Program-made: the position numbers and the translations under genes
Notes under the pieces: model-generated
Database searches by the model: none
What the model was told of the DNA's origin: nothing
Seen by the model: only the letters and a program-made list of their open reading frames with translations
Assembly: GCA_938045955.1 (NCBI GenBank)
Contig: CALIBK010000039.1
Coordinates: 1 to 46,201 of the forward strand
From: an uncultured bacterium
GTDB lineage: Bacteria > Desulfobacterota > BSN033 > UBA1163
Length of the DNA stretch: 46,201 bases
Direction of reading: 5' to 3'
Shown: one piece after another, positions 11,147-35,356 of the stretch
Layout: every line of letters begins with the position of its first letter
Position numbering within the stretch: the stretch's first letter is position 1

Positions 11147-12373
11147 ATGTTGAAACGAATCAAAGGTGTCCGTAGGGTGTTGTTTTCTGCGTTCATGGCA
11201 ATCTCTTTTCTTCTGCTCACTCCGGTTCTGAGTTTAGGGGATCAGAAGACTGATGAAGGGAAGAAACCAGAAAGGTTAATAGAAATGGCCGTTGAATATC
11301 CCGTGGTGGTCGTGGCTCCAAAAGAAGAGGTGAGTATGGATATCATTTTTCATAATCGAGGACGCTCTAATGAGGATGTAGAGGTCTGGATTGATTCACA
11401 GCCGAAGAACTGGAAGGCAAAGATTAAGACCTATCGTTATGGAATTAGAGGGGTTCATGTTCCTTCGGATCAAACCAAAACGATTACCTTTGAAGCCACT
11501 CCTGAGAAGGAAATGAAATTGGGTGAATATAAGTTTGAGATTAAAGGAAGGACGGTGGATGGGAATTTTAATTTTCACAAGACCATCTTAGTGAAGGTAG
11601 AGGAGAAAGAAAAGGGAACGGTTGAGGCGAAAGGGGTGAAATTGACCACCTCCTATCCTGTCCTTCAAGGTCCCTCGGATGCAAAATTTGAATTCTCGAT
11701 GGAAGTTGAAAGCAAATTGGACAAGGAAGCCGTTTTCGATCTTTCCGCCCAATGCCCGGAAGGATGGATCGTCAATTTTAAACCCCGATGGGAAGAGAAA
11801 TATTTCTCAAGTATCCGACTGAAAGCGAATCAAAGTGAAACCGTTGCAGTGGAAGTGAAACCGATGCCACTGGCAAAAAGTGGAGAGTATCCTATTACGA
11901 TTCGAGTCAGTTCTGGAGATGCCCGAGCCGAGGTAAAATTAAAAATCATTATTACCGGGACCTACGCTCTTGAAGCCGGGACTCCTACAGGTCTTCTCTC
12001 CTTAGAAGCAAGGCAGGGAAAACCTGCGAATATCTCTTTTTATATCAAAAATACTGGAACCGCTCCAAATCGAGATATTAAATTTGTCTCATTTAAACCT
12101 GAGAACTGGAAGGTGGAGTTTAATCCTGAAAAGATCCCCGCCATTGAGCCTGGGGATCTGAAACAGGTTGAAGCCATCATTACTCCCTATGAAGAGGCTC
12201 TGGTTGGGGACTATTCCGTAGGGGTGAGCATAGAAGGGGAGAAGGTCAAGAAGAATCTGGAATTCCGTGTTACAGTCCGGCCTTCGACGGCATGGGGCTG
12301 GATCGGGATTGGAATTATTATTGTCGTGGTAGGAGGTCTTGCAGGATTGTTCCGCTGGTTGGGGAGGCGATAA
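11147..12373 (+). CDS. Exported membrane-anchored NEW3-domain (COG1470-like) protein
   Basis: Signal peptide; repeats of beta-sandwich type PENWKVEFNPEKIPAIEPGDLKQVEAIITPYEEALVGDYSVGVSIEGE; C-terminal TM WGWIGIGIIIVVVGGLAGLFRWLGRR. Confidence 0.8.
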   Translation: MLKRIKGVRRVLFSAFMAISFLLLTPVLSLGDQKTDEGKKPERLIEMAVEYPVVVVAPKEEVSMDIIFHNRGRSNEDVEVWIDSQPKNWKAKIKTYRYGIRGVHVPSDQTKTITFEATPEKEMKLGEYKFEIKGRTVDGNFNFHKTILVKVEEKEKGTVEAKGVKLTTSYPVLQGPSDAKFEFSMEVESKLDKEAVFDLSAQCPEGWIVNFKPRWEEKYFSSIRLKANQSETVAVEVKPMPLAKSGEYPITIRVSSGDARAEVKLKIIITGTYALEAGTPTGLLSLEARQGKPANISFYIKNTGTAPNRDIKFVSFKPENWKVEFNPEKIPAIEPGDLKQVEAIITPYEEALVGDYSVGVSIEGEKVKKNLEFRVTVRPSTAWGWIGIGIIIVVVGGLAGLFRWLGRR

Positions 12374-12374
12374 T

Positions 12375-13127
12375 ATGGAGAATCGAATTGTGATAGAAAC
12401 GGAGGAACTGACCAAGGTTTACAACAGTGAGGTGGCAGTCGATCATCTTACCTTCCAGGTCAGAGAAGGAGAGGTATTTGGATTTCTTGGTCCAAATGGT
12501 GCAGGGAAGACCACCACCCTGCTGATGCTTCTGGGCCTCACAGAACCTACAAGTGGAAAGGCAAGAGTGTTGGGGGTGGATCCGGTTAGAGATCCCATCA
12601 AGGTGAAGGGGATGATCGGTTATATGCCTGAGAATATGGGTTTTTATAGAGATCTGGACGCAATCCAGACTCTTCGTTTTGTGGCTGAGCTCAACGGGTT
12701 TCCAAAAGATATAGCAGAGGAACGAATTGAGAAGGCGCTAAAAACCGTTGGGCTCTTCGAGGATTCAAAGAAGAAAGTAGGGGCCTACTCGAAGGGGATG
12801 AGACAGCGGCTCGGGATTGCTGAACTCCTGATTAAGGAACCAAAAGTGGCTTTTCTGGATGAGCCTACCCTGGGACTGGATCCTGATGGAACGAATCGGA
12901 TGATGGAGTTGATTGAGCGGTTAAGCAGAGAGGGAAGGATGACCGTGATCTTAACCTCTCATCTCCTCCATTTAGTTCAGAGGATTTGCCATCGAGTTGG
13001 AATCATGATCAAGGGGAAGATGGTGGCCCAGGGACCGATGGAGCAGTTGGCCAAAGAAAAGTTGGGGGTAGGCGCTGAGAAATACACTCTCGAAGAGATT
13101 TATATGAAATATTTTAAGGAGGCATAG
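12375..13127 (+). CDS. ABC transporter ATP-binding protein
   Basis: Walker A GPNGAGKTTT, signature YSKGMRQRLGIAELL, Walker B VAFLDEPTLGLDP; ATG 12375 preferred over track start 12339. Confidence 0.95.
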   Translation: MENRIVIETEELTKVYNSEVAVDHLTFQVREGEVFGFLGPNGAGKTTTLLMLLGLTEPTSGKARVLGVDPVRDPIKVKGMIGYMPENMGFYRDLDAIQTLRFVAELNGFPKDIAEERIEKALKTVGLFEDSKKKVGAYSKGMRQRLGIAELLIKEPKVAFLDEPTLGLDPDGTNRMMELIERLSREGRMTVILTSHLLHLVQRICHRVGIMIKGKMVAQGPMEQLAKEKLGVGAEKYTLEEIYMKYFKEA

Positions 13128-13129
13128 AG

Positions 13130-14086
13130 ATGCACGGGCTTAAAGCCATCTTTAAGAAAGAGCTTTCGGATCATTTCAGCAGTTATCGCTTTATGATCCT
13201 TTTTGCTTTGATCACCATGGTCAGCCTGATCATTGCCTATATGGTCGGGATGACCATGAGGGAAGAGTTAGCCAGTGTGGCCAAGCCCAAGTATGTCTTT
13301 CTTATGCTTTTTACCTCAAGGGGAGGCCTTTTTTCTTTAGTTCAATTTATAGCCTTTTTTGGCCCTCTGATTGGTTTGATCCTTGGATTTGATTTGATTA
13401 ACAGAGAACGAAATGAGGGCACCCTCAGTCGGTTGCTTTCTCAGCCTGTTTATCGGGATTCGGTGATCAATGGGAAGTTTCTGGCAGGAGTGGTGACGAT
13501 CAGTATCATGATGCTCTCCATCGTCCTGCTGATCACAGGGCTTGGACTCAGGATGGCAGGGGTGATTCCAGGGCTGGATGAGATTTGGAGAATGGGGATT
13601 TATTTAGTCATCAGTATCATTTACATCTCTTTTTGGCTGGGAGTTGCAATTCTTTTCTCGATCCTCTTTCGCGGGATTGCCACCTCCGCGCTTGCTGCTT
13701 TAGCCGTCTGGATTTTTTTCTCCTTCTTTGTTCCCCTGGGAGCAACCATTATCGCGGATGCCTTTGTTCCTGACCCGAATCCAAACAACCCAGAGGCCAT
13801 TTTAACCCATGCCAAGATCCAGAAGGCGATCTCTCTGGTTTCTCCGATGCAGCTTTATTCGGATGCGACCGGGACGATTATCGATCCAACGCGAAAAACA
13901 ACCCGAACCGTTATTCTGATGGGACCCTTAGAGAAACTCTCTCAGGCCCGTTTTGCTGGACCATTGACCCTCGGGATGAGTCTCTTCGTGGTGATGCCAT
14001 ATATTCTTCTTCTGATCGCCATTACTGCCATCTGTTTTGCCATCTCCTATACGATTTTTATGAGACAGGAGATCCGATCTCTCTAA
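13130..14086 (+). CDS. ABC-2 type permease (NosY-like)
   Basis: Multiple TM helices; FDLINRERNEGTLSRLLSQPVYRDSVINGKF. Confidence 0.9.
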   Translation: MHGLKAIFKKELSDHFSSYRFMILFALITMVSLIIAYMVGMTMREELASVAKPKYVFLMLFTSRGGLFSLVQFIAFFGPLIGLILGFDLINRERNEGTLSRLLSQPVYRDSVINGKFLAGVVTISIMMLSIVLLITGLGLRMAGVIPGLDEIWRMGIYLVISIIYISFWLGVAILFSILFRGIATSALAALAVWIFFSFFVPLGATIIADAFVPDPNPNNPEAILTHAKIQKAISLVSPMQLYSDATGTIIDPTRKTTRTVILMGPLEKLSQARFAGPLTLGMSLFVVMPYILLLIAITAICFAISYTIFMRQEIRSL

Positions 14087-14663: not shown

Positions 14664-14681
14664 ATTAAACAGGTGTTTAAT
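14664..14681. promoter_or_regulatory. Operator-like palindrome upstream of ino1
   Basis: ATTAAACA-GG-TGTTTAAT, 8-bp perfect arms, 20 nt before the ino1 start codon. Confidence 0.5.
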
Positions 14682-14701
14682 TCAGAAGGAGGTGATCGTT
14701 G

Positions 14702-15907
14702 ATGGGAAAGATTCGAACCTGCCTGATTGGAGTAGGGAATTGTGCCAGTTCTTTCGTCCAGGGGTGCTTCTATTATAATGACCCAAATGCGGATATCCCT
14801 GGACTGATTACAAAGAATTTTGGGGGATATCGAGCTTATGATATCCAATTCGTTTCGGCCTTTGATGTGGACGAAAGAAAGGTAGGTCGGGATCTTTCGG
14901 AGGCCATTTTTGCCAAACCTAACTGTACCACCATCTTTCAAAAAGAGATTCCCTACCTGGATTGTCCGGTTGAAATGGGGTTTATTATCGATAGCATCCC
15001 CCCTCACAACGAGCAATTTCCTGAATCGGTTAGGTTTAAACCTTTAAAGAACATTTATGAAACTCCTGAGGAAGCCAGGCGAGCTATTGTCCGGAGTCTT
15101 AAAGAGAAAGCTGTGGATGTCGTGGTGAACTACCTTCCTGTGGGGAGTGAAGAGAATACCCTTTTCTATGCGGAATGTGCCCTGGAGGCGGGTTGTGCCT
15201 TTGTCAATGCCATCCCTGTGTTTGTTTCCAAACTCTATGGGGAGAGGTTTCGAAAGGCGGGCCTTCCAATCTTGGGGGATGATATTAAATCTCAAGTCGG
15301 AGCAACGATCATTCATCGGGTATTGACCAGACTCTTTGAAGATCGAGGGCAGAAAATCAAGCGATCCTACCAGTTGAATTTCGGCGGGAATACAGATTTT
15401 CTGAATATGCTTGATCGAGAGAGACTGAAGAGCAAAAAAATCAGTAAAACCCAATCTGTTCTCAGTCAGATGAACGATAGCTATTTTGATCCTCAAAACA
15501 TTTATATCGGCCCCAGTGATTATGTTCCCTGGTTAAAGGATAATAAAATCTGCTTCATCAGAATTGAGGCCGAACAGTTTGGTGGGGTTCCAATGAATTT
15601 GGAAATTCGCCTTTCTGTGGAGGACTCTCCAAACTCTGCAGGAGTGATTATGGATGCAGTGCGGGCAGCTAAAGTGGCTCTTGATCGGGGACTCTCAGGG
15701 CCCATTATTGAGGCCAGTGCTTATCTTTTTAAATCTCCTGTCCAACAGTTCGAGGAGAGTGAAGCAAGGGAGATGCTTAAACGATTTGCTCGACCTGAAG
15801 AAGAGGGATTGAAGGAAGAAGAAAAATTCTTTAAGCCCTTTAAGAAGCATCCTTCCTACGAAAAGAGTTCTGTGAAAACGGGATATATGGGATCACTGGA
15901 GGTCTGA
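14702..15907 (+). CDS. ino1: myo-inositol-1-phosphate synthase
   Basis: IRTCLIGVGNCASSFVQGCFYY; NYLPVGSEENTLFYAECALEAGCAFVNAIPVF; LGDDIKSQVGATIIHRVL; GPSDYVPWLKDNK; strong RBS GGAGGTGATC. Confidence 0.93.
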   Translation: MGKIRTCLIGVGNCASSFVQGCFYYNDPNADIPGLITKNFGGYRAYDIQFVSAFDVDERKVGRDLSEAIFAKPNCTTIFQKEIPYLDCPVEMGFIIDSIPPHNEQFPESVRFKPLKNIYETPEEARRAIVRSLKEKAVDVVVNYLPVGSEENTLFYAECALEAGCAFVNAIPVFVSKLYGERFRKAGLPILGDDIKSQVGATIIHRVLTRLFEDRGQKIKRSYQLNFGGNTDFLNMLDRERLKSKKISKTQSVLSQMNDSYFDPQNIYIGPSDYVPWLKDNKICFIRIEAEQFGGVPMNLEIRLSVEDSPNSAGVIMDAVRAAKVALDRGLSGPIIEASAYLFKSPVQQFEESEAREMLKRFARPEEEGLKEEEKFFKPFKKHPSYEKSSVKTGYMGSLEV

Positions 15908-15922
15908 AAGGAGGGATCCAGA

Positions 15923-17104
15923 ATGAAGATCGCCATGATGTCGGCATGGAACACGGATTCAGGGGTCTCCGTCCACGCCGAGTTGATTGGTCGGGAATGG
16001 GTCAAGATGGGACACCCATTACAAGTGTTTACCTTTCTTCCTTCAGATTTTCATGGAACCACCATAGTGGGAGAGGATGAACCCTATGTCATCCGTTGTT
16101 TTACCACCTCGAACTGTCATCGACCCTACCTTGATCCAAGGCCTTTCCTTTCAGGAGAATACGAGGTTTTTGTCGTTCAGGATCTCGGGATGCTTCCCAT
16201 GGATGAACTGGCAAAGATCTTTTTCCACATCCGAAGAAAAGCAGTGACCTTAAATATCATCCATGATAATCGACCCTCTTCCAATCCCTCTTTTTACCAA
16301 TTCGATTGGGACCGGATCGTCTGCTTTGATCCACGATATGAGGCATTCCTTCGAAAATACCATCCACCAGAGAAGATTCAGATCATCCCTTTTCCCTGTC
16401 ATCCCTTGAAGAAAGGAGACCAAAAGGAGGCAAGGGCGAAATTGGGGCTTCCCATGGAGAAAAAGATCATTTTGATCTTTGGCCAAAGAATGAAAGAGTA
16501 TTTTCCCTTATGGCCTCTCCTTCGGGAGCTGGCCTCTGACCATCAGTTTCTCCTTCTCATCGTTTCCCAGAAGGAGATCGAAGGGCTCGAGATGCTCGAG
16601 GGAGTGGAGAGGGAGATTCGAAGAGAATCTCCCTCTCTTGACCTCCTCTATGAATACCTTTATGCCTCGGACGTGTTGATTCTCCATCGAGATCCATGTG
16701 ATGGGGTGGTTGTTTCGAGTTCAGCCTTTCAATGTCTCGGTTCAGGGTGTCCGATTCTTGCCAATCATTCATCCTTCTTTGAGACGCTTAAAGAAGTCGT
16801 CCTTATTTATTCCGATCTCAGGGAGTTTAAAGAAAAGTTATTAGATCTATTGAGTCATGGAGAGGGATACCAAAGGATCCAGAAGGCTCTCCAACCATTC
16901 ATCGAGAGGAATAGTGCCGAAGTGATCGCCAAACAATATCTCCTTCTCTTTGAGAGATTATGGGAGGAGAGAAGATCGGGGGAATTTGATCGATTCTCCC
17001 GGATCTTTAAAACCATGGAGGCTCTTCCGATTCCCGAGCAAAAAGAGGAGAGGGGTTTTCCGCTCCTTCAAGAATCAAAACAGGGAAGACTCCATCCCCA
17101 ATGA
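15923..17104 (+). CDS. Glycosyltransferase, GT4-like (cluster-specific type A, copy 1)
   Basis: MKIAMMSAWNTDSGVSVHAELIGREWVKMGH; DVLILHRDPCDGVVVSSSAFQCLGSGCPILA. Confidence 0.8.
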   Translation: MKIAMMSAWNTDSGVSVHAELIGREWVKMGHPLQVFTFLPSDFHGTTIVGEDEPYVIRCFTTSNCHRPYLDPRPFLSGEYEVFVVQDLGMLPMDELAKIFFHIRRKAVTLNIIHDNRPSSNPSFYQFDWDRIVCFDPRYEAFLRKYHPPEKIQIIPFPCHPLKKGDQKEARAKLGLPMEKKIILIFGQRMKEYFPLWPLLRELASDHQFLLLIVSQKEIEGLEMLEGVEREIRRESPSLDLLYEYLYASDVLILHRDPCDGVVVSSSAFQCLGSGCPILANHSSFFETLKEVVLIYSDLREFKEKLLDLLSHGEGYQRIQKALQPFIERNSAEVIAKQYLLLFERLWEERRSGEFDRFSRIFKTMEALPIPEQKEERGFPLLQESKQGRLHPQ

Positions 17105-17141
17105 TCGCAGGTTTGCCTCCATTTCCAAGGAGGTGAGAGAA

Positions 17142-18476
17142 ATGGTGAGTTTTGTCTCCACCTTTCCACCCGCTATGTGCGGGATTGGAACCTATACAAA
17201 ATATTTAACCGACTGGATGTCTGAAGCTCAGTGGAATGTCATTACTTTTAAGCCCGATGAATTCTCCATTGACAGAGGAGAATGGAAGAATCAGAGAAAG
17301 GATAGGATCTATCCCTGGATCACTCTTGAAGATCCTTCCCTCCCCGAAGAGATTCCGGAAGGAATCCTTTGGTTTCAGCATTCCTTCGGAATGTGGGGGA
17401 GGGTCAATACATCCTTCTTAAAATTGATTGAAGAAGGAAAGAGAAGAGGAAGAAAAGTGGGCGCAAGTTTTCATACGATTCATTTTCAATCGAATGAGAC
17501 TCCATGGGGGATGCAAGAGAAAGAAAGGGAACTTTTAGAAGAAGCTCTCCCATTGTTGGACTTTGCAACGGTGTTTACTTCCGGAGCAAGGAGAGCTGTG
17601 ATCGAGACTTTCCCCCAATACAGGGATAAAGTTTTGGTTCTCAGACACGGCGTTCACCGATATCCTGTGGTGAGTCAAGAGGAAGCAAGGGAGAAGCTCT
17701 TCTCCTATCTTTACCAAAACCCTTCTCTTACCCTCCGAGATAAGACTAATTTGATGAAGTTGAAGAAGTTCCTTTCTAAGAAAGAGGCAATTCTGATAGG
17801 AAACTATGGGTTCATCACCCAGGATAAGGATCCTATTCAACTCTATGAGATAGGGGGTCTTTTACAGAAAAGGATTCCCCATCAGAGGGTCGTCACCCTC
17901 TTCATCGGGAAGATCCAGGAGAGGAAGGATAAGAAGAGGGAGGTTTGTCTCCCAATCCTGGAAAAATTAAAGGCCCTTCACGATGGGGAGACAAATCTTT
18001 TTTATGAAGATTATCTTCCTGAAGAGATATTCCCTTTTGCCTTCAGGGCACTGGATGTGGCGGTATTCTGGTGCAGTAATGCGACCCAATCCGGGAGAAT
18101 GGCTCACGCTCAAGGAACAGGGGTAGCCATCGCTGGGCGGGACTTGGAGGGAATTGGAGAGACACTGAGACTTTCAGGTCTTCCTTCCTCTCTAACGATG
18201 GAGGAACTCTCTGAGAAGATCGCTGAAGTCCTTTCTGAATCAAGGCTCAGGAGAGAGATGGAAGGGAAAAGTAAAAAATATGCCCTGCGATTCTCATTTT
18301 ACAATCAAGCCCAGAAGCACCTTCTGGTGGAGAAAGCCCTCTTGATGGGAGATCCACTTCCTTTACTGGATGGAGAGATGGAAGATGACCTACATATTGG
18401 AGAGATTGGCTTTAGGAGATTTGAAGGATTTAGAAGAACCCGAGGAGGGAGTGACCTCTATTCTCAATGTCGCTGA
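17142..18476 (+). CDS. Glycosyltransferase, GT4-like (type B)
   Basis: MVSFVSTFPPAMCGIGTYTKYLTDWM; AAGGAGG RBS before ATG 17142 (track start 16950 overlaps the upstream gene). Confidence 0.75.
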   Translation: MVSFVSTFPPAMCGIGTYTKYLTDWMSEAQWNVITFKPDEFSIDRGEWKNQRKDRIYPWITLEDPSLPEEIPEGILWFQHSFGMWGRVNTSFLKLIEEGKRRGRKVGASFHTIHFQSNETPWGMQEKERELLEEALPLLDFATVFTSGARRAVIETFPQYRDKVLVLRHGVHRYPVVSQEEAREKLFSYLYQNPSLTLRDKTNLMKLKKFLSKKEAILIGNYGFITQDKDPIQLYEIGGLLQKRIPHQRVVTLFIGKIQERKDKKREVCLPILEKLKALHDGETNLFYEDYLPEEIFPFAFRALDVAVFWCSNATQSGRMAHAQGTGVAIAGRDLEGIGETLRLSGLPSSLTMEELSEKIAEVLSESRLRREMEGKSKKYALRFSFYNQAQKHLLVEKALLMGDPLPLLDGEMEDDLHIGEIGFRRFEGFRRTRGGSDLYSQCR

Positions 18477-18789
18477 GGAGGTAGAGGTTCACCATCCCAA
18501 TCTGAATTATCATAAAATTCCTCTGAAGGATGGAGTCCCTATCCCTGTGGATAGGATGAGAGAGGCTATCCGATGGATAAAGACACATATTTCATCGGAT
18601 AAGGTACTTGTGGCCTGTCATTGGGGGGTGGGGAGATCGGCTTCGATTGTGATCGGTTATCTATGCAGTTTAGGGTTTGGATATGAAGAGGCGCTCAACT
18701 TTGTTTCTTCTAAAAGACCAGGGGTGAATCCTATTCCAGGATTAAAAGAGACCATTCAGAATCTCAATCATGAAGGGGGAGAGAGATAA
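18385..18789 (+). CDS. Dual-specificity/cysteine phosphatase
   Basis: CX5R loop VACHWGVGRSASIVIGYL; ATG 18385 follows GGAGAG; overlaps upstream GT by about 92 nt in another frame. Confidence 0.85.
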   Translation: MTYILERLALGDLKDLEEPEEGVTSILNVAEEVEVHHPNLNYHKIPLKDGVPIPVDRMREAIRWIKTHISSDKVLVACHWGVGRSASIVIGYLCSLGFGYEEALNFVSSKRPGVNPIPGLKETIQNLNHEGGER

Positions 18790-19845
18790 ATGCATATTGC
18801 AATGATGACCGCTTGGAATACAGATTCCGGAGTGGCTGTTCACGCTGAACCCATCGGAAAAGCCTGGATCGAAATGGGACACCAGGTGACGATCTTCAGC
18901 CATGTTTCCTATGACTATCATGGAGAAGGATTTACAGGGAAGGATGAAGACTATGTGGTGAGATGTTTTGGGACTCAGCGGACTAACTTCCTGGATCCTC
19001 GTCCTATTCTTACCACCAATTTTGATCTCCTTGTCGTTCAGGATTTAAGGATGCTTCCGGTGGAAAATTTTGCCAAGATCTTTCCTCTTCTCAGGAGGCG
19101 AGCAAGGATTGTTCATGTGGTCCATGAAAATAGACTTCCTGAGGAGCCCTGGTTTTATCAATTCTTATGGGATGGGGTGGTCTATTTCGATGAGAGACAG
19201 GAATTTCTTAAAGAGGTTTATCCAAACGCAAAATTGATTCCCTTCCCATGTTTTCCTATTCGAAGGGGGGATAAGATCGAAGCACGGAAAAGATTGGGTC
19301 TCCCCATTGATAAAAAGATCATTTACATTTTTTGCCATCGAGGATATGAACCTTTTCTTCGAAATATCCCGGAAGAACTTGAGGGTCAGGCCATTTTACT
19401 TTTTGTGGTACCTCCGAATTATCAGATGGTCGAAAGGGGTAGGATTCCTCCTTGGATGATCATTCGTGAGGAGAGGGTTCTCTCAAAAGAAAGATTTGAT
19501 GAATACCTTTTCGCCTCGGACGTCGTGATTCTTCATAAGTTTCAGAGTCTGTTTTTGGGAGTCGTCTCTTCCACAGCGTTTCAGGCCCTGGGGGCGGGGT
19601 GTCCGATGTTCGTTCCGGCCCTCTCTGACTATTTCAAGCCTTTGGAGAACGAGGTCGTCCATTATCATGATATCGACGATCTCGGCGATCGACTGGTTGA
19701 ACTTCTTTTAAAAGATGGTGAGAGAGAGCGGTCCTTGATTGACCTTGCGGATGGATTCTGTTCGGTCAATTCTCCTCAGATCATCGCCAAGAGGTTTATT
19801 GATTTCTTCGTAGAGCTTGGGAAACCTTTATGGGGGCATCCATGA
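18790..19845 (+). CDS. Glycosyltransferase, GT4-like (type A, copy 2)
   Basis: MHIAMMTAWNTDSGVAVHAEPIGKAWIEMGHQ, similar to copies at 15923 and 21878. Confidence 0.8.
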   Translation: MHIAMMTAWNTDSGVAVHAEPIGKAWIEMGHQVTIFSHVSYDYHGEGFTGKDEDYVVRCFGTQRTNFLDPRPILTTNFDLLVVQDLRMLPVENFAKIFPLLRRRARIVHVVHENRLPEEPWFYQFLWDGVVYFDERQEFLKEVYPNAKLIPFPCFPIRRGDKIEARKRLGLPIDKKIIYIFCHRGYEPFLRNIPEELEGQAILLFVVPPNYQMVERGRIPPWMIIREERVLSKERFDEYLFASDVVILHKFQSLFLGVVSSTAFQALGAGCPMFVPALSDYFKPLENEVVHYHDIDDLGDRLVELLLKDGERERSLIDLADGFCSVNSPQIIAKRFIDFFVELGKPLWGHP

Positions 19846-20762
19846 GAGGAGATCGATTTCCGATCGGTCCATTTCGAGATTATGATGGCAATCCCATCCT
19901 TCAACCCCAAAAGGGTTTTTTTTCAAAAGGACTTTATAATCCTTCGGTATGGAGGGAGGGGAATCATTTTTACTTATTCTTTAGAGGGGAGAGTGAGGAC
20001 GGGTTGACGGGAAGGATTGGCCTGGCTATGAGTGAGGATGGATTTCATTTTACCTGTCATGAGGAACCTGTGATTGTTCCCAGTGAAGAATACGATCAAG
20101 GAGGCTGTGAGGATCCGAGAGTTGTTAAATTGGAGGATACCTACTACCTTCTTTATATAGGGAATAGCAGGCGTTACCATGTATCCAATATCTGTATCGC
20201 GAGATCGGAGGACCTGACTCACTGGGAGAAACTGGGAAGGATTCTTTCTCCAAAACCGGGGAGCTGGGCCAGCGGACAGCTGAAGGCAGGAGTGATACTT
20301 CCTGAACGGGTGAATGGATACTATGTGATGTATTTTATGGGAGAGAAAGAACCCTGGAAGACCGGGATCGGTATTGCCTATTCTGAAAATTTAAGGGACT
20401 GGTTTGAACCTGTGAATCAACCTGTGATGACTCCTCGTTCGGGTTATTTTGACAGTCAGGGGGTAGAGCCGGGGCCGACTCCTCTTATAATCGATGAAGG
20501 GATTCTTCTCATCTATAATGGGTGGGGGAAGGACTGTGTTTATAAACCTGGGGGAGTCCTCTTTTCAAAGAAGGATCCCGCTCTCATTTTAAAAAGAACA
20601 GAAGAGCCCCTTATTTGTCTTGAGAAGGATTATGGAAGAGAGTTTGGACTGTCGAATCATTGTGTAGCCGAGGGACTTGTGCGAGAGGGAGAGCGCTGGC
20701 TTCTCTATTATGGAGCTGCAGATCGATTCTGTTGTGTAGCAATCTGGGAGGAGGAAAGATGA
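19830..20762 (+). CDS. GH130-like protein 1 (divergent, possibly hydrolytic)
   Basis: GGCEDPRVVKLEDTYYLLYIG; LLYYGAADRFCCVAI; five-bladed-propeller style repeats. Confidence 0.8.
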   Translation: MGASMRGDRFPIGPFRDYDGNPILQPQKGFFSKGLYNPSVWREGNHFYLFFRGESEDGLTGRIGLAMSEDGFHFTCHEEPVIVPSEEYDQGGCEDPRVVKLEDTYYLLYIGNSRRYHVSNICIARSEDLTHWEKLGRILSPKPGSWASGQLKAGVILPERVNGYYVMYFMGEKEPWKTGIGIAYSENLRDWFEPVNQPVMTPRSGYFDSQGVEPGPTPLIIDEGILLIYNGWGKDCVYKPGGVLFSKKDPALILKRTEEPLICLEKDYGREFGLSNHCVAEGLVREGERWLLYYGAADRFCCVAIWEEER

Positions 20763-21634
20763 GACTGAAACGATTTTTGAAAAATCCTATTTTACGGCCC
20801 AAAAGAGAAAATGACTGGGAATCGAAACTGGTTTTTAATCCCGCAGCATTATACGAGAATGGTCTATTTCATCTCCTCTATCGGGCGATTGGAGAGGATA
20901 ACATCTCGAGAATCGGTTATGCCGTAAGTTCCAATGGATATGAATTTTTCCGCCTGGATAAACCTGTATTTACCCCCATGGGAATTCTTGAGAGTAAAGG
21001 TTGTGAGGATCCAAGACTGGTTTCATTGGAAGGAAAGTTCTATATGACCTATACGGCCTATTCGATGAAGGGGGTCAGGGTTTCGCTTGCCTCGACCCGT
21101 AATTTTATTCAATGGGAACGTTATGGAGTGGTTCTTCCGGATATGGAGAATAAGGATGCGGTTCTCTTTCCTGAAAAGATTGGAGGAAGATATGTGATGC
21201 TTCATCGCCCGATGGATCCTCCCCGAAGCATCTGGATTGCCTATTCGAACGATCTGGTGAAGTGGGGAGATTTCAAAAAGGTGATGGCTCCGATCGAAGG
21301 AAGGTGGGACGGTATTGGGATTGGGTCCGCAAGCCCTCCTGTGAAAACCGAGAAGGGGTGGTTACTCATTTATCACGGGATTGACAAAGATGGGGTCTAT
21401 CGATTGGGGGCCGCTCTTTTGGATCTCGAAGACCCCTCTCGAGTCTTGGGAAGGCATCCGGAGCCTATCCTTGAGCCCGAGGAGGATTATGAACTTCGGG
21501 GAGAGGTCAGAGAAGTTGTTTTTGGATGCGGGATCTGCGAGGTGGAGGATAAATACTTCATCTATTATGGGGCTGCCGATAAGGTCATCTGCGGGGCAAC
21601 CGCAGAAAAGAGAGAACTCTTAAATCTATTTTAG
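20759..21634 (+). CDS. GH130-like protein 2 (phosphorylase-like)
   Basis: KGCEDPRLVSLEGKFYMTYTAYS; NKDAVLFPEKIGGRYVMLHRPM; GWLLIYHGIDKDGVYRLGAALLDLEDPS; FIYYGAADKVICGAT. Confidence 0.9.
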   Translation: MRLKRFLKNPILRPKRENDWESKLVFNPAALYENGLFHLLYRAIGEDNISRIGYAVSSNGYEFFRLDKPVFTPMGILESKGCEDPRLVSLEGKFYMTYTAYSMKGVRVSLASTRNFIQWERYGVVLPDMENKDAVLFPEKIGGRYVMLHRPMDPPRSIWIAYSNDLVKWGDFKKVMAPIEGRWDGIGIGSASPPVKTEKGWLLIYHGIDKDGVYRLGAALLDLEDPSRVLGRHPEPILEPEEDYELRGEVREVVFGCGICEVEDKYFIYYGAADKVICGATAEKRELLNLF

Positions 21635-21666
21635 GAGGCTGTTCAATAGCAGAGGGGGTTTAAGGC

Positions 21667-21774
21667 GTCATTCCTGCGAAACTTGTCCCTGCAGGTCTTA
21701 AGCAGGGAGCAGGAATCCAGAGAGAAACAAAAAATCTTTAAAAAAACTAGATTCCGTGTCAAGCACGGAATGAC
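21667..21774. repeat. REP-like inverted-repeat element, second copy
   Basis: GTCATTCCTGC..GCAGGAATCCAG (21667-21720) then CTAGATTCCGTGTCAAGCACGGAATGAC (21747-21774). Confidence 0.75.
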
Positions 21775-21877
21775 GGACTGCGGTAAGCGAAAAATTAATG
21801 GCCCCTGCGAAGCCTTGTCTTACAATGATTTGTGAATTATTGAAAAGGCTCTATTTTAAACTTTGGAGGTGAGGGAG

Positions 21878-22984
21878 ATGAAGATCGTCATGATGAGTCG
21901 ATGGAATATTCCATGTGGAGTATCGATTCATGCGGAATTGGTGGGAAGGGCCTGGGTGGCGATGGGACATGAACTTGAGGTACTGGCTCCCTGTGAATGG
22001 GAGGATTATAAGAGTGATGTCGATGAACCTTTCGTCAAACGATGTTATCGTTTGCCCAAACCTGAGAGGAAGGAGGGCTATTTCTTTGATGAGAGGTCTT
22101 TTAGAGATCTCCATTGCGATGTTTTTGTAGTCCAGAATCTTGAGATTCTTCCCATGGAGGATCTTTATAGAGTTTTTCCTTCCATTCGAGAGAAGGCAAA
22201 GACGGTCTTTGTCGTCCATGAGGGGAAACCTCCAAAGGACCCTATCTTTTATCGATTTGAGTGGGATGCGGTCGTGTGCTTTGATGAAAGATATAAGCGA
22301 TTTTTGGAAAAGATTTATCCGAAAGAAAAAATATTCGTCATCCCTTATCCTTGCCATCCTCTCCATTATGGGGACAAAATGAAAGCACGAAAGGAATTAG
22401 GGCTTCCTTTGGACAAAAAGATTCTTTTCAACTATGGCATCGGGGTATATCGTCACCTCCATCTCCTTCCCACCATTGAAAGAGTTCATCAAGAATACCC
22501 TCTTATCCTTCTTACGCTCACCCATATTCCGGAGTGGTATGATCTTTTTGAAAGTGTTCGACATCGATATCCTTTTATTGAATTGAGAAAAGGAGACATT
22601 CCAATTCCACAACTCTATACTTACCTTCATGCTTCTGACGCATTGTTAGTTCATAAGGATTCGGCTGAAGCTGTAGTGGTTCCCTCAACCGCATTTCTCT
22701 GTCTGGGGTCTGGGTGCCCGATTTTGGCTTACGATACAAACTTCTTTGAAACCTTTGATAAGGAAGTGATCAAATATAGTGATCTTGGTGAAGTCTTAAG
22801 AGAGGTTTTTCAGGGGAGCGAAAGGGTGAAGGAGACACTCAGGAGGGCTGAGACGTTTGTCCAAAATCATTCTTCCACAGTAATCGGAGAGAAATTTATT
22901 TCACTGTTTAACTCTCTTCAGTCCTCCCGATATGAGGTTTCATCTTCCCTTTCCCGAGAATATTACCCTCTTCCCCATCCATGA
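21878..22984 (+). CDS. Glycosyltransferase, GT4-like (type A, copy 3)
   Basis: MKIVMMSRWNIPCGVSIHAELVGRAWVAMGHE; GGAGGTGAGGG RBS. Confidence 0.8.
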   Translation: MKIVMMSRWNIPCGVSIHAELVGRAWVAMGHELEVLAPCEWEDYKSDVDEPFVKRCYRLPKPERKEGYFFDERSFRDLHCDVFVVQNLEILPMEDLYRVFPSIREKAKTVFVVHEGKPPKDPIFYRFEWDAVVCFDERYKRFLEKIYPKEKIFVIPYPCHPLHYGDKMKARKELGLPLDKKILFNYGIGVYRHLHLLPTIERVHQEYPLILLTLTHIPEWYDLFESVRHRYPFIELRKGDIPIPQLYTYLHASDALLVHKDSAEAVVVPSTAFLCLGSGCPILAYDTNFFETFDKEVIKYSDLGEVLREVFQGSERVKETLRRAETFVQNHSSTVIGEKFISLFNSLQSSRYEVSSSLSREYYPLPHP

Positions 22985-23035
22985 AAAAAATGATATGGAT
23001 AAGAAAATTCAATTTGTTAAAGAAGAAGGGGTACG

Positions 23036-23422
23036 GTGAGGAGAAAGGTGAGATTGGACGGAGAGGGAAAAGGAATTTTATCAGAGGAGAGACCATGGGG
23101 TGGGTTCATTGTTCTGGAAGAAAGAGTTACCCATAAGGTCAAACGAATCTGGGTCCATCCCGGGCATCGATTAAGTTACCAGAAACATCGTTTCCGGAAC
23201 GAGCACTGGTTGATCGTTGAAGGAGAGGCAAAGGTGATCCTGGATGGAAAGGAAATCTCTCTAAAACCAGGGGGTTCAGTGGATATTCCGATTGGGGTAG
23301 CTCATCGGATCGAAAACATAGGAAGTGGAATTCTTACCTTTATCGAGGTGCAGAGAGGAGAAGATTTTTCTGAGGAAGATGTGATTCGACTTGAAGATGA
23401 CTATGGGCGAGTTCGTCCTTAA
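23036..23422 (+). CDS. Stand-alone phosphomannose-isomerase-type cupin (ManC C-terminal-domain-like)
   Basis: ERPWGGFIVLEE; HPGHRLSYQKHRFRNEHWLIVEGEAKVILDGKEISLKPGGSVDIPIGVAHRIEN. Confidence 0.88.
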   Translation: MRRKVRLDGEGKGILSEERPWGGFIVLEERVTHKVKRIWVHPGHRLSYQKHRFRNEHWLIVEGEAKVILDGKEISLKPGGSVDIPIGVAHRIENIGSGILTFIEVQRGEDFSEEDVIRLEDDYGRVRP

Positions 23423-24590
23423 TCGGAAGGATCATTATCTCTTAGGTCTTAATTATTGGCCCATCGATTCAGGGCCTTACTGGTGGCGCTCTTTTGATCA
23501 GGGGGTTATCGAAGAGGATTTTTCAAGAATCAGGGAGGCGGGGTTTGAGACCCTTCGAGTATTTCTCCTCTGGGAGGATTTCCAACCCGAACCTCGAAAG
23601 GTCTCTATTCCGTCCATCCATCATCTGGTCAATGTAATAGAGACGGGTTATAAAAAAGGACTCCAGTTCGTGGTCACTTTCTTTACCGGACATATGGGTG
23701 GAGTCAATTTTCTTCCTCCGTGGATGGTTGAATTCGGGGAAGGGGACCTTCGCTTTCCTATTTTTACGGATGGGAAGAGAAGAAGAGGAAAGAGTATAAA
23801 TTTTTATTCGAACAGAGAAGTCCAGAGGGCCCAAAAATTACTCCTTGGTGAGGTTTCGGAAGCACTGAAGGGACATCCAGCTCTCTGGGCATGGGATCTT
23901 GGGAACGAACCCTCTAACCTCGTTCAGCCGAATTCTAAGGAAGAGGCAGAAGGATGGCTCGAAGAGATGGTCTCGGAGCTTAAAAAGAGAGATGAGTCGA
24001 TCCTGGTGACCTTAGGACTTCACCAGGAAGACTTAGAAGAGGATCGAAGAATGGGGCCTAAAGAAGTGGCCCGCTGGTGCGACTTCTTATCTATTCATGC
24101 CTATTCCATTTATGCTTCCTGGACCAATGACCAAATGGATGAATCTGTTGTTCCTTTTCTTGGCCTCTTGACCTGGTGGCTTGGTTCCAAAGAGGTGTTC
24201 ATCGAAGAGGTGGGGATTCCTTCTTCAAATGATTTTAAAGGAGAAAAGATCGTTTCGGAAGAAGTGGCTTATTCCTATTATGAAAGACTTCTTCCATGGA
24301 TGAATCGTTATCCTTTTCTGGGAGTCCTTTTCTGGTGTTATGGAGATTATTCAAAGGCCTTATGGGAAAGACCTCCTCTGGATGAGGCTCCCCATGAACG
24401 TTATTTTGGACTATTTCGGGAGAATCGTTCTCCAAAATCCTTCCTTCCTCTGTTCTCTCTGATTCAGAGAGAGAGACCGAGGACGGAGGTTAAATTGGAT
24501 TGGATAGAGATGGAACCCGATGAATACTTCAGAAACCCCAAAGAACACCTTTCTCGGCTCTTTTGGAGATTTAAAGATCAGGAAGGTTAA
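23391..24590 (+). CDS. GH5-like/clan GH-A glycoside hydrolase
   Basis: LNYWP..GPYWW; PALWAWDLGNEPSN acid/base; VFIEEVGIPS nucleophile; true start could be 23397 or 23403. Confidence 0.75.
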   Translation: MKMTMGEFVLNRKDHYLLGLNYWPIDSGPYWWRSFDQGVIEEDFSRIREAGFETLRVFLLWEDFQPEPRKVSIPSIHHLVNVIETGYKKGLQFVVTFFTGHMGGVNFLPPWMVEFGEGDLRFPIFTDGKRRRGKSINFYSNREVQRAQKLLLGEVSEALKGHPALWAWDLGNEPSNLVQPNSKEEAEGWLEEMVSELKKRDESILVTLGLHQEDLEEDRRMGPKEVARWCDFLSIHAYSIYASWTNDQMDESVVPFLGLLTWWLGSKEVFIEEVGIPSSNDFKGEKIVSEEVAYSYYERLLPWMNRYPFLGVLFWCYGDYSKALWERPPLDEAPHERYFGLFRENRSPKSFLPLFSLIQRERPRTEVKLDWIEMEPDEYFRNPKEHLSRLFWRFKDQEG

Positions 24591-24599
24591 GAAGGGAGG

Positions 24600-25685
24600 T
24601 TGGGGACGATGGTTTTTGTGATCATGGGAGGGGGTTCAGGAACGCGGTTCTGGCCAGCCAGCAGAGAAGCCTGTCCCAAACAATTTTTAACCATTTATGG
24701 GGCTCATCCTCTTATTTATGAGACCTATCGTCGAGTGGCCTCGCTGGTCGAGGATCAGAGGATCATCTTAGTCATCAACCGAAAGCATCGCCCTCTGGTG
24801 GATCAGATCTTCCATGCACATCAGGTCCGGGTGATCGAGGAGCCAGAAGGGAAAAATACCGCTCCCTGTGTTGGACTGGCCTCCCTTTGGGTGAAGAAGG
24901 AATTTGGGGATCAACCGGTTGCTTTTCTCCCAGCCGACCATTATGTCGGTCGTGAGGAACTTTTTCAAAAAGCCCTCCACACGGGCCTCTCTTTTGCTGA
25001 GAAAGGGGGAATCGTTTTACTGGGGGCCACTCCAACCTATCCTGAAACGGGATATGGATATATCGAGAAAGGAGAAAGGGTCTCTTCCTCTGAAGAATTA
25101 TCCATTTACGAGGTAAAACGATTTGTTGAGAAACCTGATTCGGAGATGGCGAAATTATATTTCAATAACCAAAATTTCTTCTGGAATATGGGGATCTTTA
25201 TTTTTAAACCCAGCCTCATCCTTTCAGAAATTGAACGCCATTTACCTTCGTTGAGTCAGGGGCTGTTGAAGATTGGAGCGGCGTTGGGATCTGATCGATA
25301 CCCTTCCATCCTTGAGGAAGTCTATCGATCTCTTTCTCCCATTTCGATTGATTACGGAGTGATGGAAAAGACGTCTCAGAAGACCTATCTCATTCCCGGA
25401 GAATATGGTTGGAGTGATGTGGGGAGCTGGAATTCCCTTTTTCAGATCAAAGAGAAAGAGAGGGATCCCCAGGGAAATCTCGTTCAGGGGAATGCGATTC
25501 TTTTGGATACAGAAGACTCCCTGATTTATTCTAAAAATGGAAGGTTGATCGGGGTACTCGGATTAAAGAACGCGCTCGTGGTGGATACAGAGGATGTCCT
25601 GTTAATCTCGAACCTCGATCGATCACAGGAGTTGAGGCAGTTTCCAGAAATATTGAGCAAGCGAGGATGGACACAATGGATTTAG
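24600..25685 (+). CDS. manC: Mannose-1-phosphate guanylyltransferase (no fused cupin domain)
   Basis: IMGGGSGTRFWPASREACPKQFL; FVEKPDSEMAKLY; WNMGIFIFKPS; SIDYGVMEKT..YGWSDVGSWNSL. Confidence 0.95.
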   Translation: MGTMVFVIMGGGSGTRFWPASREACPKQFLTIYGAHPLIYETYRRVASLVEDQRIILVINRKHRPLVDQIFHAHQVRVIEEPEGKNTAPCVGLASLWVKKEFGDQPVAFLPADHYVGREELFQKALHTGLSFAEKGGIVLLGATPTYPETGYGYIEKGERVSSSEELSIYEVKRFVEKPDSEMAKLYFNNQNFFWNMGIFIFKPSLILSEIERHLPSLSQGLLKIGAALGSDRYPSILEEVYRSLSPISIDYGVMEKTSQKTYLIPGEYGWSDVGSWNSLFQIKEKERDPQGNLVQGNAILLDTEDSLIYSKNGRLIGVLGLKNALVVDTEDVLLISNLDRSQELRQFPEILSKRGWTQWI

Positions 25686-27316
25686 AAAAAAGGGGTCTTC
25701 CATCTCAAGGAGACTCGATTCAGATACAGAAGGTTCTTTCTTCTATCCTTTCCTTACCGGGGAAGGAGAGAATGGAGGCTATCCTGTCCCTGGAGAATGC
25801 TCGAGAGGTCTTCCAGTCCATGCCAGAAGAGGAAGCCTATCTGACCATTAAAGAGATCGGTGACCATGATAGCCTTCCTCTTCTCTCTCTCATGTCGAGT
25901 GATCAGTGTCAGTATCTTCTGGATCTTGAACTCTGGAAAGGATATGAGTTTCAACCCGAAAGAGTGGAGCACTGGCTTCCCCTACTTCTGGCCTGTGAAG
26001 AGGAGGCCCTGGAGGAGTGGCTGAAAGGGATTGATCTGGATACCCTTCTTCTTCTTTTAAAGAAGCATATTCGAATCCATCTGAAAGAGAGAGAGGACAT
26101 TTCCTCGCAGGAGGAACATCCTCCTTTCTTTACCCTTGATGGAACCTATTATATTGAAGTCTTAAGACCCGCTCTTCAGGAATCAATGGAAAGGCTGTTA
26201 AGACATCTCGCCGCTCAGGATCTCTCTTTTTACTGGAGGGTCTTGGAGCAAGTTCAAGCAGAGATCGAGGTGGAACTCGAGGAGAGGGCCCTTCATTTCA
26301 GGGAGGCAAGACTTGAGGAGAGGGGTTTCCCGAGGATGGAAGACGCTCTTTCCCTTTATCAATATCTCAATCCCAAGAGACTCAGGCAAATGATGGAACA
26401 AAAGGAGATCCATTTCCCAGGACTTCCGGCAGATCTTCCTCCTCCTTCTTTTCCCATGGTCCTTCAGGATCAGAAACTCTTTTTTTCTTTGTGTTTGAGA
26501 GAGGTTGAAGGAGGCCCTTTCATGGATCGACTGAAGATGGAGCTTGCCTATATGGCGAACCAGATCACGGTGGCTGATCAACCCGAGAGGATCGACCTTT
26601 CTACTCTCCAGGAAAGCTTAAGAAAAGTCGGAGGATATCTTAGCATAGGTTTAGAGCGGCTCACGGGTGGGGAGATTCAGAAGGCAAGGGGCGTGCTTGA
26701 AGAGATTCCGTTGAAATTTATTTTTCAAGTAGGATACGGTGCAACCCTTGAACTCAAATGGAGGGCCGAAAGAATATGGAAAAAGGGCTGGTTTTCTGAG
26801 AACAAGGTTCCCTTCTCTTTTTTAGATTCCCCCTGGGAAGAGAGAATAGAGGGTTTAGTTAAAAAGAAGAGACCTCTCTTCTATGACGAAGAGAAAGGGG
26901 CATTTCGTGAATTCCGTTCTTATTCCGAAATCCAAATCCTTCATAAGGATTTGGATCGACTCGAACTCTTGGGAAGAATCTTACAATCCTTACCCAATTT
27001 TTCTTACTTTTTGGGATGGACTTGGAAGGAATTTCTATTTCACGCATTTCTTCGTGAGACAATTCCGTCGAGCATTGAAACCCCAATGGATACAATAGAG
27101 GAAAAGGTTTCCCTTTTAAAAAGTCTCTACTCCGAGGAGGAGTTAAGAAAGAGTTTCATTGCTTGGCTTTCAAGTAAAGGGAATCTTTCCTACGAAAGGG
27201 AAAATTCTCTTCTTCATGAGATATTCGATCTCCTTTTCAAAACCTTCACCAATCATAAAGGGTTAGATCAGGAGCCCGAGGAGATGGTCAATCAATTAAT
27301 CTCTAAATCTGAATAG
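25676..27316 (+). CDS. DUF6178-like protein of unknown function
   Basis: EEEAYLTIKEIGDHDSLPLLSLMSSDQCQYLLDLELWKGYEFQPERVEHWL resembles DUF6178; alternative start 25667. Confidence 0.65.
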   Translation: MDLEKRGLPSQGDSIQIQKVLSSILSLPGKERMEAILSLENAREVFQSMPEEEAYLTIKEIGDHDSLPLLSLMSSDQCQYLLDLELWKGYEFQPERVEHWLPLLLACEEEALEEWLKGIDLDTLLLLLKKHIRIHLKEREDISSQEEHPPFFTLDGTYYIEVLRPALQESMERLLRHLAAQDLSFYWRVLEQVQAEIEVELEERALHFREARLEERGFPRMEDALSLYQYLNPKRLRQMMEQKEIHFPGLPADLPPPSFPMVLQDQKLFFSLCLREVEGGPFMDRLKMELAYMANQITVADQPERIDLSTLQESLRKVGGYLSIGLERLTGGEIQKARGVLEEIPLKFIFQVGYGATLELKWRAERIWKKGWFSENKVPFSFLDSPWEERIEGLVKKKRPLFYDEEKGAFREFRSYSEIQILHKDLDRLELLGRILQSLPNFSYFLGWTWKEFLFHAFLRETIPSSIETPMDTIEEKVSLLKSLYSEEELRKSFIAWLSSKGNLSYERENSLLHEIFDLLFKTFTNHKGLDQEPEEMVNQLISKSE

Positions 27317-34561: not shown

Positions 34562-35356
34562 ATGGAAAGAAATGAACGTTATCTTGAAGTAGCTGTGAAA
34601 GCGGCCAGAGAAGCAGGACGAATTCAGAAACTTTATTTTGGCTCTTCCCTTCAAATCGAATTTAAGGGAGAGATTAACCCTGTGACAGAAGTGGATCGGC
34701 TCTGTGATCGGGCCATTTCAGAAATCCTTCTTCAGACCTTTCCAGATCATGATCTGCTCACCGAAGAGAGTCCTTTCGAAAAAAAAGGTTCTCCTTATCG
34801 ATGGATTGTTGACCCTATGGATGGTACAACGAACTACCTTCATGGATACCCTTGCTTTTGTGTCTCCATTGCCCTGGAATTTGAAAAAGAGGTCATTCTG
34901 GGAGTCGTGTATAATCCCATCCTCGATGAACTCTTTATTTCGGAGAAAGGTAAAGGGGCCTATCTGAATGGGAAAAAAATTTCTGTCTCCCAAGAAAAGA
35001 ATCTCTTTCGAAGCTTCCTGTCGACTGGATTTCCCTATGATGTTCATGACCATGGAGATTTTTATCTCCGTTACTTTCGTGAGTTTCTCATCAGAAGTTT
35101 TGCCATTCGAAGGCCAGGATCGGCTGCCCTTGATCTCTGTTACCTCGCCGCTGGTCGATTCGATGGATTCTGGGAGTTGAAACTTCAGCCTTGGGACGTT
35201 GCAGCCGGGGCCCTCATGGTGATGGAGGCCGGAGGAAAGATCACCGATTTCAGGGGACAACCATTCCATATTTATTCCAAAGAAGTCCTTGCCTCTAATG
35301 GATGGATTCACTCTCAGATGCTCGAAACCATCAAAGAGGCAGAGAAGAATCTTTAA
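34562..35356 (+). CDS. Inositol monophosphatase-family phosphatase
   Basis: DHDLLTEES; WIVDPMDGTTNYLHGYPCFCVSIAL; WELKLQPWDVAAGALMVMEAGG. Confidence 0.95.
   Translation: MERNERYLEVAVKAAREAGRIQKLYFGSSLQIEFKGEINPVTEVDRLCDRAISEILLQTFPDHDLLTEESPFEKKGSPYRWIVDPMDGTTNYLHGYPCFCVSIALEFEKEVILGVVYNPILDELFISEKGKGAYLNGKKISVSQEKNLFRSFLSTGFPYDVHDHGDFYLRYFREFLIRSFAIRRPGSAALDLCYLAAGRFDGFWELKLQPWDVAAGALMVMEAGGKITDFRGQPFHIYSKEVLASNGWIHSQMLETIKEAEKNL

Follow-up and report, generated by a model that had tools for sequence, protein, structure and literature searches.

A Desulfobacterota gene cluster joining inositol-1-phosphate synthase, GH130 enzymes and GT-B-fold glycosyltransferases: a possible route to mannosylated inositol compounds

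The window analysed here covers positions 1 to 46,201 of contig CALIBK010000039.1 (forward strand; GenBank assembly GCA_938045955.1) from an uncultured bacterium of the Desulfobacterota (BSN033; UBA1163), referred to below as the host. At 14702-25685 it carries a tightly packed, co-directional run of genes on the + strand, in which a dedicated inositol-1-phosphate synthase gene (ino1) stands with glycosyltransferase (GT), GH130 and mannose nucleotide genes. We give about an even chance to the proposal that the enzymes of this cluster make and break down a beta-mannosylated inositol or inositol phosphate compound in the cytosol. The product would probably be a solute related to mannosyl-di-myo-inositol phosphate (mannosyl-DIP), with a likely role as a stress solute and a possible use as a reserve. 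An original prediction, made from the letters of the window, had proposed an intracellular mannose glycan or mannosylated inositol solute that is recycled by phosphorolysis; this still fits the data best as a reading of the cluster, its product being conjectural, and the prediction as a whole is partly supported.

Inositol genes and GH130 in related genomes

The cluster encodes three paralogous glycosyltransferases, GT-A, GT-B and GT-C (these are gene labels, not folds; the original prediction had named them GT-A1, GT-A2 and GT-A3), and a separate fourth, GT-X, of a second type. When 84,980 genomes were scanned with an alignment of the GT family, 77 related loci emerged, with many uncultured anaerobes among their bacterial and archaeal carriers. 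The bacterial loci belong to Desulfobacterota, Spirochaetes, Planctomycetota, Chloroflexi, Clostridia, WOR-3, Aminicenantes, Atribacterota and others; the archaeal loci belong to Methanosarcinales, Methanophagales (ANME-1), Bathyarchaeota, Archaeoglobaceae and Thermoproteota. A GH130 gene directly follows the GT gene in 52 of 76 loci, a recurrence that excludes chance, and since many loci lie on short contigs the linkage counts are lower bounds. Near-complete versions of the cluster are found in Syntrophaceae bacterium L.E.D.62 (genome G002) and in genome G018.

An ino1 gene lies within 10 kb of a GT gene in the phylogenetically scattered loci L013, L017, L021, L068, L072, L076 and L087. The search of gene neighbourhoods that the original prediction had proposed thus shows the linkage of ino1 and GH130 to recur in other lineages, so its own suggested refutation, that the genes are not conserved outside this genome, fails. 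The cluster copy of ino1 appears to be dedicated: together with the copies of G002 and G017 it forms a separate long-branch clade (support 100/100) apart from the housekeeping copies. The host has a second ino1 (G000:C45), and G002 likewise has two, whereas genomes of the same family without the cluster have one where ino1 was found. The closest solved structure to the cluster protein is M. tuberculosis Ino1 (1gr0, E 2e-112). In G002 the cluster ino1 is split over two overlapping frames (L013:5291-6458), by a frameshift or an assembly error.

The association extends to the bifunctional IPCT/DIPPS gene (di-myo-inositol-phosphate synthase; best solved match 4mnd, E 2e-54), which adjoins the locus in L017, L072, L076, L081 and L087. 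Di-myo-inositol phosphate is known as a solute that protects against heat. Genomes G018 and G304 have a GT cluster that lacks ino1, but each possesses an ino1-IPCT/DIPPS-DUF4202 operon elsewhere in the genome; among the cluster relatives, IPCT/DIPPS is present in L017, G018, G304 and G017. Within the phylum sample the GT family is rare (7/297 genomes, counting matches above 100 bits). The genomes that have it differ from the sample as follows: (i) ino1 is found in 7/7 against 167/297 (p=0.017); (ii) at least two ino1 copies are found in 3/7 against 14/297 (p=0.003); (iii) full-length IPCT/DIPPS is found in 4/7 against 29/297 overall (p=0.002), all in tests that take related genomes as independent and therefore overstate significance. 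Across lineages IPCT/DIPPS occurs in 20/49 GT genomes against 25/290, the 49 having been reached via other loci and not matched to the phylum background. It is commonest with a third class of GH130, which has Arg at position 199 (LR) and occurs in relatives (11/16 genomes against 9/33, p=0.012). The presence of IPCT/DIPPS beside the cluster or elsewhere in its relatives suggests a system related to DIP-type solutes.

The original prediction had excluded the known mannosyl-DIP route, having seen no IPCT/DIPPS gene. Its absence from the host assembly stands, but the route was dismissed too early given what the relatives carry. Neither the host (91.7% complete) nor G002, its nearest relative with the cluster (95% complete), has a full-length IPCT/DIPPS match, so the absence rests on two incomplete genomes. 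Two host candidates were rejected: a weak nucleotidyltransferase match (28.7 bits) and a match at E 1.5e-11 that is most likely the host's PIPS-like CDP-alcohol gene.

Two arrangements of the IPCT/DIPPS gene were also observed. In G017 (C133; L132:4913-7033) a single 707-aa frame joins it to a HAD-type phosphatase domain at the C-terminal end, and G314, G309, G044 and G176 have frames of comparable size (about 690-707 aa). The fused domain is a candidate for the phosphatase step from phosphorylated DIP to DIP. In several lineages IPCT/DIPPS has a DUF4202 (HD-domain) gene immediately after it (L017:11563-12138, L076:8224-8856, L126:6745-7338, L127:11492-12109), possibly the unfused form of the same step.

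Gene content and enzyme classes of the cluster

Every gene named in the original prediction is present, in the same direction as the others and where it was placed. The features are as follows.

14702..15907, + strand: ino1, inositol-1-phosphate synthase family; divergent, cluster-dedicated second copy (PF01658, 127 bits)
15923..17104, + strand: GT-A, GT4-like glycosyltransferase of GT-B fold, paralogue 1 (identity to GT-B, alignments)
17142..18476, + strand: GT-X, second type of glycosyltransferase of GT-B fold (model, Foldseek, profile match)
18385..18789, + strand: DSP, dual-specificity-type phosphatase (PF00782, DSPc, 49 bits; CX5R active site)
18790..19845, + strand: GT-B, GT4-like glycosyltransferase of GT-B fold, paralogue 2 (model, Foldseek)
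19842..20762, + strand: GH130a, apparently hydrolase-type GH130; phosphate-binding residues lost, Lys199 equivalent kept
20759..21634, + strand: GH130b, putative beta-1,2-mannoside phosphorylase type (closest structures, residues)
21650..21850, no strand: dispersed intergenic repeat between GH130b and GT-C
21878..22984, + strand: GT-C, GT4-like glycosyltransferase of GT-B fold, paralogue 3
23036..23422, + strand: PMI-type cupin, mannose-6-phosphate isomerase type (PF01050, MannoseP_isomer, 103 bits)
23403..24590, + strand: GH5-like protein, related to beta-mannosidases and beta-mannanases (PF00150, 26 bits, weak)
24600..25685, + strand: manC, mannose-1-phosphate guanylyltransferase (PF00483, NTP_transferase, 141 bits; PF22640, ManC beta-helix, 42 bits)
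25667..27316, + strand: DUF6178 protein (PF19676, 424 bits); overlaps manC

ATGA overlaps join GT-B to GH130a and GH130a to GH130b, the GT-X and DSP genes overlap by 92 bases, and the cupin/GH5 and manC/DUF6178 pairs overlap by a short distance. A promoter scan gave no signal above shuffled sequence. Hydrophobic segments of the kind seen in membrane helices or signal peptides are absent from all cluster enzymes. The element noted as REP is a real dispersed repeat: the host genome has 27 matches to it, of which about 17 are long. ManC scores 304 bits against TIGR01479, under the cut-off of 373, which was set for the longer two-domain protein. The GH5-like protein has an endo-beta-mannanase (7bob) and GH5_18 as its best solved relatives. 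Two PMM/PGM genes are located elsewhere in the host genome. The DUF6178 gene had been taken as the end of the cluster and does overlap manC, but among the fetched loci it adjoins the cluster solely in the same-family relative G002; it may therefore not belong, and despite the overlap its product probably lies outside the pathway.

The two GH130 proteins (Pfam GH130, 150 and 254 bits) fall into different classes when their residues are aligned, taking residue roles from PMC4599007. GH130b has Teth514_1788 (9fj8, E 8e-91) and Teth514_1789 (7fip, E 9e-80) as its nearest solved relatives. It has the catalytic Asp142, the Lys199 equivalent associated with beta-1,2 specificity and, as in both relatives, the basic phosphate-binding residues (an HR pair and a His), and so looks like a beta-1,2-mannoside phosphorylase. 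In GH130a and its close homologues the HR pair is replaced by FM and the His by Asn, which removes the phosphate-binding set, while the equivalents of Glu268 and Lys199 of the hydrolase BT3780 are present. At the position of Glu227 the MAFFT column contains other residues; pairwise alignment to 3taw places the Glu of FMGE there. GH130a appears hydrolase-type, resembling the beta-1,2-mannosidase BT3780. The residues rule out two phosphorylases, and the original suggestion that GH130 phosphorolysis yields mannose 1-phosphate (Man-1-P) is retained for GH130b but not for GH130a. Among relatives, one phosphorylase-type GH130 domain is embedded in a reading frame some 1,188 residues long (L029:2347-5910, a contig shared with L103), possibly a large fusion protein.

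The GT-A fold originally assigned to the three GT paralogues is ruled out by structure prediction and Foldseek. They are 38-50% identical to GT-B (GT-A 45%, GT-C 38%), and the model of GT-B (pLDDT 93.8) has a GT-B fold with MshA, glycogen synthase, PimA and BshA as top matches. The family shows both this fold and a GT4-like profile; its Pfam matches are weak (PF13439 in 17/56 members). GT-X (pLDDT 80) is nearest in fold to MshA, glycogen synthase and trehalose-6-phosphate synthase, and matches the profile of a GT4 family present in archaeal relatives. Sequence searches of the PDB with GT-B and GT-X gave no match at E up to 1. The EX7E motif of retaining GT4 enzymes was sought in 56 sequences, and the C-terminal-domain stretch, located by eye, had no invariant or near-invariant Glu. 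The lack of conserved glutamates leaves room for an inverting, beta-forming enzyme. The CX5R active site of DSP is intact and the motif is conserved in 6/6 aligned sequences.

Other neighbouring genes can be summarised briefly. In the window, 9 kb downstream of the cluster (34562-35356), is a gene of the inositol monophosphatase family (228 bits); a second such gene is found elsewhere in the genome. A cassette of NEW3-domain, ABC ATPase and ABC-2 permease genes stands beside the cluster in the host (11147-14086) and in G018 (L014:16871-19849), its relative orientation differing. Near the GT genes of relatives no accessory family dominates save GH94 and pantothenate kinase, with five members each. 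GH94, a beta-glucoside phosphorylase family, is found in archaeal loci (ANME-1/Methanosarcinales; L025, L067, L070, L085, L089) and may form a glucosyl equivalent to the pairing of GT and GH130. On a Dehalococcoidia contig a GH63 gene resembling mannosylglycerate hydrolase adjoins two GT genes (L037:7510-8859), a hint of solute turnover. Within 10 kb of GT-GH130 are Cpn60 in six loci (L014, L017, L039, L070, L087, L091), MscS channels in four (L037, L070, L076, L087) and Hsp20 in one (L101:9679-10140); these raw counts may hint at heat or osmotic stress physiology.

Proposed pathway and alternatives

The sequences show which genes are present and linked, the residue classes, the co-occurrence and the absence of IPCT/DIPPS from the assembly. 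From these we infer which reactions take place and in what order, which acceptor is used, which anomer results and what purpose the product serves. GDP-mannose would come from the PMI-type cupin and ManC together with one of the two PMM/PGM enzymes, and inositol-1-phosphate from the dedicated Ino1. One glycosyltransferase, perhaps GT-X, whose gene overlaps that of DSP, would mannosylate inositol phosphate, after which DSP would take off the phosphate, an arrangement like that of the synthase/phosphatase pairs known from other solute pathways. Further beta-(1,2-)mannoses would be added by the three GT paralogues. For turnover, GH130b would phosphorolyse beta-1,2-Man-Man to Man-1-P, which ManC could use again at no cost in ATP; GH130a and the GH5-like protein would act by hydrolysis. 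In genomes with IPCT/DIPPS the mannoses would be put on di-myo-inositol phosphate to give MDIP/MMDIP-like solutes, as in Thermotoga, whose mannose is beta-1,2-linked (PMC3124967). In the host, which lacks IPCT/DIPPS, the acceptor would be inositol or inositol phosphate itself.

Several points, besides the non-independence of genomes noted above, weigh against this proposal. The closest folds of the GT family are retaining, alpha-forming enzymes, and an activity is known for no member. No ino1 was detected in 16/49 GT genomes, many of them small and probably incomplete assemblies; neither ino1 nor IPCT/DIPPS is universal among GT genomes, so the acceptor may vary. In the phylum ino1 is common for other reasons (167/297). 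GT-X and DSP also accompany DIP operons (L017, G018), which clouds their role there.

The alternative that survives best, though we think it rather unlikely, is a reserve like mannogen, in which the GTs make a free cytosolic beta-1,2-oligomannan that GH130b mobilises and inositol is at most a primer or unrelated. The cytosolic nature of the cluster enzymes, the beta-1,2-oligomannan phosphorylase type of GH130b and the 16/49 GT genomes in which ino1 was undetected all agree with it. So does the beta-1,2-mannan store of Leishmania, which GDP-Man-dependent transferases elongate on a phosphorylated primer (PMC3290622). A plain mannan would predict neither a dedicated second ino1 nor the recurrent linkage and enrichment of ino1 and IPCT/DIPPS.

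It is improbable that Ino1 feeds phosphatidylinositol, which the GTs would mannosylate as PimA and PimB do. The GT fold is like that of PimA and PimB', and the host has a PIPS-like CDP-alcohol phosphotransferase (L096; 154 bits against the archaetidylinositol phosphate synthase model, cut-off 180), but its scores fall under curated cut-offs. PIM mannoses are alpha-linked, whereas GH130 substrates are beta-mannosides; the cluster lacks a membrane protein and the pathway with which it is enriched yields a water-soluble inositol product.

Salvage of imported beta-mannosides to GDP-mannose, as proposed for Thermoanaerobacter, has the shared GH130, ManC, GT4 and GH5 content in its favour (PMC4264767) and is very improbable here. 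The cluster has no sugar ABC transporter or binding protein, transporter families are scarce near relatives (2 matches each among 118 neighbours), and four glycosyltransferases, Ino1 and DSP would be left unexplained. Several glycosyltransferases together with ManC and PMI, as found here, are typical of surface polysaccharide or O-antigen loci. Such a locus with an incidental GH130 pair is the least credible reading and was rejected, since flippase, polymerase, chain-length regulator and export genes are absent from the cluster and from the leading neighbour families of relatives, and a beta-mannoside phosphorylase and Ino1 fit it poorly.

We return to the proposal of a mannosylated inositol compound, which can be put in a wider form that we hold tentatively and think falls short of an even chance. 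Anaerobic bacteria and archaea may widely share a solute pathway not described before, in which beta-mannosides are made on inositol phosphates by a new EX7E-less family of GT-B fold and recycled by GH130 enzymes paired with it gene by gene; the host product would be an oligomannosyl-inositol made from inositol-1-phosphate via DSP, without DIP. If true, this would tie together two subjects until now treated apart, the Thermoanaerobacter beta-1,2-mannoside phosphorylases, for which no natural substrate source is known, and the mannosylated inositol solutes of Thermotoga and Aquificales, and provide candidate biosynthetic transferases for both. It would also widen the known range of such solutes to ANME-1, Desulfobacterota and numerous deep-branching anaerobes, and offer GT-B enzymes that form beta-mannosyl bonds, for which chemistry is a poor substitute.

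Comparison with known systems

The claim that the system is undescribed is weakened, as a GH130-GH130-ManC-GT4-GH5 cluster in Thermoanaerobacter sp. X-514 (Teth514_1786-1796) was reported in 2014 as GDP-mannose salvage, and the return of GH130-derived Man-1-P to ManC was already proposed there (PMC4264767). For the combination of GT, GH130 and ino1 no description was found in the literature searched, a coverage from which subscription journals are largely missing. Both clusters have two GH130s, ManC, GT4 and GH5, and GH130b is nearest to the Thermoanaerobacter beta-1,2-oligomannan phosphorylase. The host cluster differs in three respects: (i) the oligomannan ABC transporter is absent (14.7-27.3 kb), the upstream ABC-2 cassette not being of sugar importer type; (ii) Ino1, DSP, the PMI cupin and three more glycosyltransferases are added; (iii) one GH130, GH130a, lacks the phosphate site.

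With the MDIP/MMDIP pathway of Thermotoga maritima the cluster would have in common inositol-1-phosphate, GDP-mannose and a beta-1,2-linked mannose on that pathway's product (PMC3124967), and IPCT/DIPPS adjoins its relatives. Unlike Thermotoga, the host has no IPCT/DIPPS, and GH130 recycling is no part of the known pathway (PMC3124967). According to its description, the MDIP synthase of Thermotoga has no relationship to known glycosyltransferases (PMC3124967), which sets it apart from the cluster enzymes of the GT4-like superfamily. The Leishmania mannogen system uses GT108 (PMC3290622, PMC8950772), which is absent here; the cluster instead has separate transferases of GT-B fold along with GH130 enzymes and Ino1.

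The entry to mycothiol synthesis (Ino1, MshA and a phosphatase) is also similar, in that the cluster has an Ino1 of mycobacterial type and a clustered phosphatase, and MshA is among the nearest folds of both glycosyltransferase types. The fold similarity is generic, however, the donor here is presumably GDP-mannose, and Ino1 reaches 426 bits against the mycothiol model TIGR03450 (cut-off 638). The cluster shares parts with the Thermoanaerobacter salvage, MDIP and Leishmania systems and is identical to none of them.

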